Below are positions 601 to 24,329 of a DNA stretch of 28,140 nt, piece after piece. The position numbers were made by a program, and so were the translations under genes. Source of the DNA: a virus; IMG/VR virus record IMGVR_UViG_3300017963_000651, positions 1 to 28,140 of that record. One strand, 5' to 3'. Under the pieces are notes generated by a model that had not been told where the DNA came from, ran no database searches, and was given only the letters and a program-made list of their open reading frames with translations. Within the stretch, counting starts at the first letter, position 1. The number at the start of each line of letters is the position of its first letter.

Positions 601-1077
601 CTACGTCAACTCGTAATTTTGACCGGATGAGACTCTTGAAAACTTGTTGATAGATTTCAAAGAATCAACGGCTTTATTAAAATGGCGTTCTGAGCACATA
701 AGAAAATTATCATCACAAACAAGCGGCCTTGGTTCAAAAGCTCGCAACTCCCGAAAGCTTCCAAAAATTCGCTCAACACCGCAAAACGCGCAACCTCGAT
801 TGCATCCTCTTGTTGTGCGCGTTGCCAATGGATTTACCCTAAAAAGGGCCGTTTCTTCGTCTTGAAAAGAAACATACTCTCTCACATATTCCGGTATCAA
901 CCTTGCCGCTGGCCCGCCGATCGTTACATTATATCCCCTCTGTTTCAAACCCTTCGCCATGCTCTTTGCCCTTGGTAACAACCATGTAAAAGGAACAGAG
1001 AAAAAATAAGAAGCGTCTTCATTCCATACCGTAATATCCTTGGGCCAACCAATCGCCTTTTTAGTTTGCGGTTTCAC
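601..1077 (-). CDS. Truncated radical SAM protein
   Basis: From a GTG at 1077 the 158-aa product carries the radical-SAM cluster motif C92-x3-C96-x2-C99 (RGCNRGCAFC), followed by a conserved-looking PLVCDDNF segment. Radical SAM enzymes bind a [4Fe-4S] cluster with these cysteines and cleave S-adenosylmethionine; the substrate here is unknown. The GTG overlaps the upstream stop as GTGA and has GGGAG 7-8 nt before it, so I prefer it to the ATG at 1143. The family is usually 250 aa or more. This protein ends soon after the first half of the barrel, and the downstream bases do not restore the frame. It is visibly more AT-rich than its neighbours. It is probably a decaying or trimmed gene rather than an active enzyme. 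Confidence 0.7.
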   Translation of the reverse strand: MKPQTKKAIGWPKDITVWNEDASYFFSVPFTWLLPRAKSMAKGLKQRGYNVTIGGPAARLIPEYVREYVSFQDEETALFRVNPLATRTTRGCNRGCAFCGVERIFGSFRELRAFEPRPLVCDDNFLMCSERHFNKAVDSLKSINKFSRVSSGQNYELT

Positions 1078-4159: not shown

Positions 4160-4564
4160 TTATGGCACAATGTAAACGGTCGGAGGCGGAGGCAAAGGGT
4201 CCTTGACTATAACCTCCTCCCCAAGAGTCCCCTCCGTTCCCTTGCACCCGTCCGAATCGCGGCAATAAACCTTGATTTGGTAACTGCCGCCCCCGGCAAA
4301 GGGAATATCCGGCCGTATGCTCACCTGTTCCCCCGGAGGTCCGGCCGGTATCTCAATATACGCCTCGAATGGCCCTCCGTTGATGCTCATATCAACCGGA
4401 TAAAAGGCCGCGTCCGGCTGAGCATCCCATGTAAAGCCGGGAGGACTGTCCCCGGGACAAATGACGGCTCCCAACGCTTGTCCGGCAAGCGCTCCGAAAA
4501 ACAAGAGCCCCGCCAGTAATAACACAACCCCAACAACAAAAGCAGATTTTTCCATTTCCGTCAT
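4160..4564 (-). CDS. Membrane-anchored or exported beta-domain protein, 134 aa
   Basis: ATG at 4564 lies right after AGGAGGAGGT; the ATG three codons later is also possible. Residues 8-33 are a strong hydrophobic segment ending GQALGA, either a signal peptide or an anchor. The remainder (VDMSINGGPFEAYIEI, GSYQIKVYCRDSDGC) resembles a single fibronectin/Ig-like beta-sandwich with two or three cysteines, and it ends in a Pro-rich tail. It is 13 nt upstream of another exported gene. Function unknown. Confidence 0.6.
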   Translation of the reverse strand: MTEMEKSAFVVGVVLLLAGLLFFGALAGQALGAVICPGDSPPGFTWDAQPDAAFYPVDMSINGGPFEAYIEIPAGPPGEQVSIRPDIPFAGGGSYQIKVYCRDSDGCKGTEGTLGEEVIVKDPLPPPPTVYIVP

Positions 4565-4578
4565 ACCTCCTCCTTGTG

Positions 4579-4941
4579 TTAAAACTCCTCCCTTAAGAGC
4601 GCTTCCACGCGCTCCTTTTTCTCTTCAAGCGCCTCTTGTTCTCTTGTCTCTAATTCGCGCTGCTCCTCAAATAAATCTAGGTCAAGCTCCGCCTCAATTG
4701 CATCTCTGATAAGGGCCTGTAGTCTGTCCGGATGCAATGCGTCCAACTCAACGGCAATCTCTCCAAATTCATTCACATACTTTCCCGCCCGTGAATCCGT
4801 CCATTTCAAAGCATCCGGATTATGCGGTAAATTGTCCGCCTCGATCTGCTCAAGCGTCAATGCACAACGCTTGAAAGTAATATCAACATTCTCAATCAAG
4901 CCCATTTCGTCAAGGAGCGTTGTCCGCATTGCCGGAAGCAT
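4579..4941 (-). CDS. C-terminal fragment of the Spo11/TopVI A-like protein
   Basis: This ORF continues the homology of the upstream gene in the -1 frame. Just before its ATG the frame encodes HDPSGYE, which completes the TOPRIM-type motif. The fragment itself (PAMRTTLLDEMG ... HNPDALKWTDSRAG ... LDALHPDRLQALIRDAI) is a helical domain with a Glu/Arg-rich coiled-coil tail. There is no separate Shine-Dalgarno before its ATG. It is either expressed poorly by coupling or silent. Confidence 0.6.
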   Translation of the reverse strand: MLPAMRTTLLDEMGLIENVDITFKRCALTLEQIEADNLPHNPDALKWTDSRAGKYVNEFGEIAVELDALHPDRLQALIRDAIEAELDLDLFEEQRELETREQEALEEKKERVEALLREEF

Positions 4942-5483
4942 CTCATAGCCGCTTGGGTCATGTCCCCGAAATAGAGCACTGCTGTTATCGCTCCCCGTTT
5001 GCGGATTCGCTTTGCGGCCTCATTGAGATATGAGACGGAAGAGAATCCCTTTGCGACAATCACCGGGACGCAATACTCAAAAGCCGCGGCATGGCAAAGA
5101 CGGGAAAGAGCGTCTTTCTCAACCCATATCTCCGGCCTTATTTCTTGTTCTTGCAGCAAGTTCCGCCGATAGCCGCTTAAAAATTCCGTCAACTGGTCCT
5201 GAATGAATATGGACATATACGGCCAACCTCCAGACCATAAAGTCTCTCGCGTCCGGTCCTCAAGGCAACGCCACGGAAAAAGATTTTCTATCCGTGCATG
5301 AGATAAAAGCGCGGAGAGCTTCTTATATTCCCGAACGTTGTTATCAATAATTTGTTTGCTTACAAGCTGATAATAGACTTGTCTGAGAGTGAGCGGCCAA
5401 AATCGCGTTAAGCCGTTCACAATGTTAATGATTCGCTCAAGCTTTTCCAACTTCGCCGGTGTCCATGTCCCCCGGTCTCGCAT
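4896..5483 (-). CDS. N-terminal part of a Spo11/topoisomerase VI A-like protein (frameshifted)
   Basis: The motif LTLRQVYYQLV (residues 31-41) matches the catalytic-tyrosine region of the Spo11/Top6A 5Y-CAP domain (R-x-x-YY). Residues 119-126 (IWVEKDAL) and 170-174 (LYFGD) match the glutamate strand and acidic strand of a TOPRIM fold. Family members make tyrosine-linked double-strand breaks; no TopVI B ATPase is visible nearby. The expected GDxDPSG is broken after FGD: the frame shifts at about 4962 and the remaining motif lies in the -1 frame. Restoring one base gives GDHDPSGYE. The last 21 residues of this ORF are therefore spurious, and the intact gene would run 5483-4579. Confidence 0.65.
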   Translation of the reverse strand: MRDRGTWTPAKLEKLERIINIVNGLTRFWPLTLRQVYYQLVSKQIIDNNVREYKKLSALLSHARIENLFPWRCLEDRTRETLWSGGWPYMSIFIQDQLTEFLSGYRRNLLQEQEIRPEIWVEKDALSRLCHAAAFEYCVPVIVAKGFSSVSYLNEAAKRIRKRGAITAVLYFGDMTQAAMRCFRQCGQRSLTKWA

Positions 5484-5501
5484 TTCGGCTCCCTCCGTTT
5501 T

Positions 5502-23915: not shown

Positions 23916-24329
23916 AAGCGTCGGCTCACCGGAAACTTTCAGCGTCACCGAAAATTTCAGCAAATCGGCAACGTCTGAGTTTGGTCCATAATTGGTAACA
24001 AGACATGGGAGCGTCCATGTTGTAGCCCCCGCGTCCGGAAACACAAGCTGAAAGTTTCGGAGGGTCCCGTTGGCATAATCGGTCCTCAAACCGACATGCT
24101 GTGCGTTATCCGGGACAAAGTTACCCTCAAGAGTGATCTCTCCCGCGTCCTTAATACCGGCAATTACTTCCCTCCAACCTCCGGAGCTATGCGCGGTTGG
24201 GTCAAGCGTATCAACGCTCATATCAGGCCCGCCAATGTTTACCATTTCAAGTATCGTGGTAAAACTCTCCGGAGTCGCGCCGTCCCCGCGTTTTAACTCC
24301 GTTCCTTTTGCGGCAATAGCGTCAGTCAT
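23910..24329 (-). CDS. Major tail tube protein, 139 aa
   Basis: ATG at 24329 follows GGAGGAGG. The protein is beta-rich with GTELKRGDGATPE, FTTILEMVNIGGPDMSVDTLDPT, EGNFVPD, and FQLVFPDAG, the pattern of siphovirus tail tube proteins (lambda gpV N-domain/TTP family). It precedes the chaperone and tape measure genes as expected. It polymerises into the tail tube. Confidence 0.85.
   Translation of the reverse strand: MTDAIAAKGTELKRGDGATPESFTTILEMVNIGGPDMSVDTLDPTAHSSGGWREVIAGIKDAGEITLEGNFVPDNAQHVGLRTDYANGTLRNFQLVFPDAGATTWTLPCLVTNYGPNSDVADLLKFSVTLKVSGEPTLA

Follow-up and report, generated by a model that had tools for sequence, protein, structure and literature searches.

Layout of the locus and position of the frame break

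The analyzed window is a virus record of 28,140 bases (G000). On its minus strand, positions 5483-4579 hold two overlapping reading frames of different phase, which jointly encode one protein of 301 residues (Table 1). The frames are offset by a net loss of one base at approximately position 4962, within the TOPRIM motif (GD/HDPSG, the slash marking the junction).

Table 1. Features of the split gene, in window coordinates.
Feature	Positions	Strand	Basis or remark
GGAGGG, Shine-Dalgarno-like, preceding the ATG at 5483	5491..5496	-	sequence
ORF 1, 195 aa	5483-4896	-	from ATG 5483
Mini-A part one, residues 1-174: winged-helix/5Y-CAP and first half of TOPRIM	4962..5483	-	PHROG 6247 positions 16-179; alignment
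RQVYY, residues 34-38, with predicted catalytic tyrosine Y38	5370..5384	-	R34 and Y38 identical in all 74 relatives
TOPRIM residues E122 (glutamate, predicted metal ligand) and K123 (lysine), both invariant	5115..5120	-	alignment
Break: homology of frame 1 stops with the D174 codon (4964-4962)	4957..4965	-	H175-D176 read after a step back of one base, from 4962
Tail of piece 1 beyond the break, out of frame and non-homologous to Mini-A (21 codons plus stop)	4896..4961	-	profile match ends at residue 175
Mini-A part two, in the -1 frame (HDPSG...): rest of TOPRIM, C-terminal helix	4579..4962	-	PHROG 6247 positions 179-292
ORF 2, 120 aa	4941-4579	-	frame already open from 5019
First in-frame start codon of part two, ATG 4941, downstream of D176	4939..4941	-

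The profile search shows that both pieces match PHROG 6247 ("DNA topoisomerase"; E 1.9e-32 for the first and 2e-21 for the second), with homology switching from one to the other exactly at the TOPRIM motif, while the read-through joined at D174/H175 covers profile positions 12-293 of 303 (E 2.2e-61). A codon-preference scan, which makes no use of homology, places the change of the preferred frame at 4973-4970, at most a dozen bases from the motif. Moreover, all nine checked phage homologues are single uninterrupted ORFs of about 290-315 aa with GDHDPSG or GDYDPSG. As these three lines of evidence agree, the split of one gene across two frames is confirmed, far beyond chance.

An exact 20-base repeat (CAAGGAGGAGGTATGACGGA on the minus strand) occurs at 4557-4576 and 10140-10159, each time over the ribosome-binding site and start codon of a different gene.

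Conserved residues, fold and family

Alignment of the relatives shows R34, Y38, E122, K123, D174 and D176 (window numbering) to be invariant. The structure of an intact relative (L021), predicted by AlphaFold2 with 74 sequences (pLDDT 91), was compared with known folds. Its residues 115-267, the TOPRIM half, superpose on Top6A 1d3y with Z 12.5 and rmsd 2.6 over 140 residues, and on other topoisomerase VI A chains (2zbk among them) with Z 11-12. The related TOPRIM folds of Spo11 (8uru, 8urq) and of JetD from the Wadjet system (7til) follow with Z 9.8 and 9.5, respectively. Spo11 acts in complex with partner proteins and JetD is a part of a four-gene defence system; no partners of either are present in the window annotation.

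Unlike Top6A, the window protein is shorter and has no ATPase B subunit found nearby, and the sequence match to Top6A is marginal: in the profile search GDHDPSG is aligned to TDGDPYG of 1d3y with E 0.13. The read-through has no Top6A match in Pfam, and the Pfam domain TOP6A-Spo11_Toprim is reached by only 5 of the 74 relatives, weakly. The N-terminal domain of the intact relative, folded alone, is a winged helix whose best matches are Fur/IscR-like (weak, Z about 7), Top6A not being listed among these weak matches; this predicted fold is consistent with a 5Y-CAP domain without proving it. The first-pass annotation had read the gene as a Spo11/Top6A-like one, with a 5Y-CAP tyrosine motif and TOPRIM elements (E122-K123, D174/D176), that is one base short inside DxDPxG and continues in the -1 frame. 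The motifs, the split, the profile match and the fold of the intact relative's TOPRIM half all bear this out. Neither of the findings that would have refuted that annotation was obtained: relatives continue through TOPRIM rather than ending at residue 175 or thereabouts, and the intact relative's fold matches Top6A.

The gene belongs to Mini-A, a family of type IIB topoisomerase A-subunit-like proteins of phages and plasmids. It is homologous over its whole length to named Mini-A proteins (PHROG 6247, NP1, LC711082). In particular, the search of phage records yielded Pseudomonas phage NP1 and its close relatives at 34%, and a protein of the archaeal plasmid LC711082 that bears the annotation "Topo Mini-A" aligns with the read-through at 34% (E 1e-24). 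Mini-A proteins have been described as truncated Top6A homologues in archaeal viruses and bacteriophages, with phage NP1 as the exemplar (PMC7614492). They are also named in PMC8185306, which cites Takahashi et al. 2020 for them, and in PMC11302465; no function is given for Mini-A in the reviews describing the family. The Mini-A matches found here comprise 68 records of phages and 50 of plasmids, besides hundreds of stretches from IMG/VR and genomes.

Topoisomerase VI is made up of an A and a B subunit, and no B subunit was found in the window: the B-subunit domains HATPase_c, HATPase_c_3 and Topo-VIb_trans have no match in the window, possibly a partial genome, and the latter two are absent also from G001, G002 and G004 (possibly partial as well). 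The missing B subunit is the rule within Mini-A and no surprise. The window protein resembles named members in its length (about 300 aa), the R..YY and GDxDPSG motifs, the temperate phage carrier and the B subunit not being found in the contig. It differs from them in that its frame is broken inside the TOPRIM motif, and it falls into a separate, well-supported clade of eight (starred in the tree) together with L019, L020, L021, L098, L099, L100 and L101, all of which are intact. Thus, while intact relatives carry the TOPRIM glutamate and DxD in one continuous frame, the window copy does not, and, since its frame breaks between both aspartates, it is a broken Mini-A gene and not a working member.

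Phage context

The contig encodes an integrase, CI-like repressor, CII-like regulator, and siphophage tail and head-tail genes, and hence belongs to a temperate phage; neither tRNA nor Rfam RNA genes were identified in the window. The contigs with the nearest Mini-A proteins (G002, G004) have the Mini-A gene alone in common with the window and otherwise share no genes with it, so Mini-A appears to be mobile between unrelated phages. Relatives sought via the radical SAM and tail proteins were limited to a single second contig, the twin considered below.

The coding scan had raised the suspicion of another frame break, at about 1140 in the radical SAM gene (CNRGCAFC; 601-1077, minus strand). This candidate was discarded: GTG 1077 can serve as the start of the gene, in agreement with the homologue from a Dehalococcoidia genome. 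The gene is apparently about 100 C-terminal residues short of a Dehalococcoidia prophage-like homologue (L187), and is possibly another decayed accessory gene. In a Dehalococcoidia genome (G011, C2, about 710-718 kb), genes of Mini-A, a nucleotidyltransferase and a radical SAM protein (L188-L190), resembling those of the window phage, lie within about 8 kb, and that radical SAM gene, too, seems to be split between frames. This cluster hints at a possible Dehalococcoidia host.

Nature of the break

Intact Mini-A is predicted to consist of a winged helix at the N-terminus, which carries the catalytic tyrosine (Y38), and a TOPRIM domain at the C-terminus, whose metal site comprises E122, D174 and D176. 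As a homodimer, it would attack DNA by Y38 with the Mg2+-bound TOPRIM site, leaving a double-strand break with covalent linkage; ATP-driven strand passage, for which a B subunit would be needed, would not take place. In the lineage of the window phage, the TOPRIM motif would have lost a single base between its two aspartates, and the ribosome would yield 174 native and 21 foreign residues before halting. As D176 is in no unshifted product, the window copy is predicted to be inactive. We consider a broken Mini-A gene, with a real and recent loss-of-function lesion in a nonessential gene of this phage lineage, to be the best explanation, with a probability of about two in three.

The state of the gene in its relatives was assessed on 160 loci collected from IMG/VR and GTDB genomes by alignment-based scans, with the best-scoring matches kept. 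Among these best-scoring matches 157 of 160, including the nearest relatives (L021, L019, L020), run unbroken in one frame across the TOPRIM motif, though the sample favours intact genes, the motif itself having been one of two search patterns and only best-scoring matches having been kept. The exceptions are L108 and L115, irregular elsewhere in the gene, and the twin contig. L108, from a Neomarinimicrobiota MAG, is Mini-A-like and interrupted by either a stop or a frame break around residues 80-92, away from the TOPRIM motif.

The foremost alternative, in our view a doubtful one, is that the base went missing through an error of sequencing or assembly and that the Mini-A of this phage is actually intact. 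The source is a metagenome contig, the rest of the protein is very well preserved, and the near relatives are all intact. However, the same break occurs in IMGVR_UViG_3300028840_003360 (30,826 bases), the sole other such locus among the 160, which matches the window over 25,257 bases save for a single mismatch (at 24234) and has different contig ends, and an IMG/VR pattern scan tolerating 0-4 bases at the junction gave the broken form only. Since the break recurs in a second assembly, a random base-calling error is unlikely. The two assemblies possibly come from related samples, so they may not be independent, and a systematic error could be common to both. Further points against an error are the lack of a long homopolymer at the site (the longest run nearby is GGGG) and of a clear sign of frame breaks in the other scanned genes of the window.

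The read-through retains 47 of the 49 columns conserved at 90% or more (including all 19 of those in the second part) and has no other stop. With near-invariant residues kept and no further stop, the break is recent or, with lower probability, bypassed. Recoding would equally predict full conservation of the second part, which speaks against the lesion; moreover, a -1 step directly after the D174 codon restores the exact family motif. Programmed -1 frameshifting (or transcript slippage) would then join the frames, and the break would serve to control an enzyme that cleaves DNA. Still, this is unlikely, and we give it a slim chance: the junction heptamers CGGGGAC and GGACATG permit almost no re-pairing, RNA folding of the next 101 bases is not more stable than that of shuffled sequences (z +1.15), slippage on GGGG would put another residue in place of D174, the sole strict heptamer (AAAGGGA at 5052, upstream) leads to a -1-frame stop at 5020-5022, and none of the 157 intact relatives uses such a break. 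Even less credible is a deliberate split of a Spo11-like enzyme at its metal site as a safety catch, with rare unconventional -1 recoding making the active form. Equally remote is the expression of both frames as two polypeptides assembling into a split enzyme: the second frame has the ATG at 4941, but it is preceded by no clear Shine-Dalgarno sequence, D176 of DxD would be in neither product (no start codon between the stop at 5020-5022 and 4941 rescues the second aspartate), and no relative is divided at the same place.

The first-pass annotation had preferred deletion or sequencing error to programmed frameshifting, noting the poor slip site. A real lesion and the improbability of frameshifting are both upheld, the heptamers included, while the lesion is a likelier cause than a simple read error, because a separately ended second assembly carries the identical break. 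Its view of a phage Spo11-like enzyme lacking a B subunit as something unusual is contradicted: Mini-A has already been described and occurs widely, in the phages, plasmids and prophages of numerous phyla of bacteria and archaea, which corrects the idea that such an enzyme is exceptional. The window gene is thus an ordinary member of a known, functionally uncharacterised family, its frame break being probably real, recent and inactivating. The broken copy hints that Mini-A may be dispensable in the lineage of the window phage, and the new clade supplies intact, divergent proteins for asking whether Mini-A makes Spo11-like breaks.
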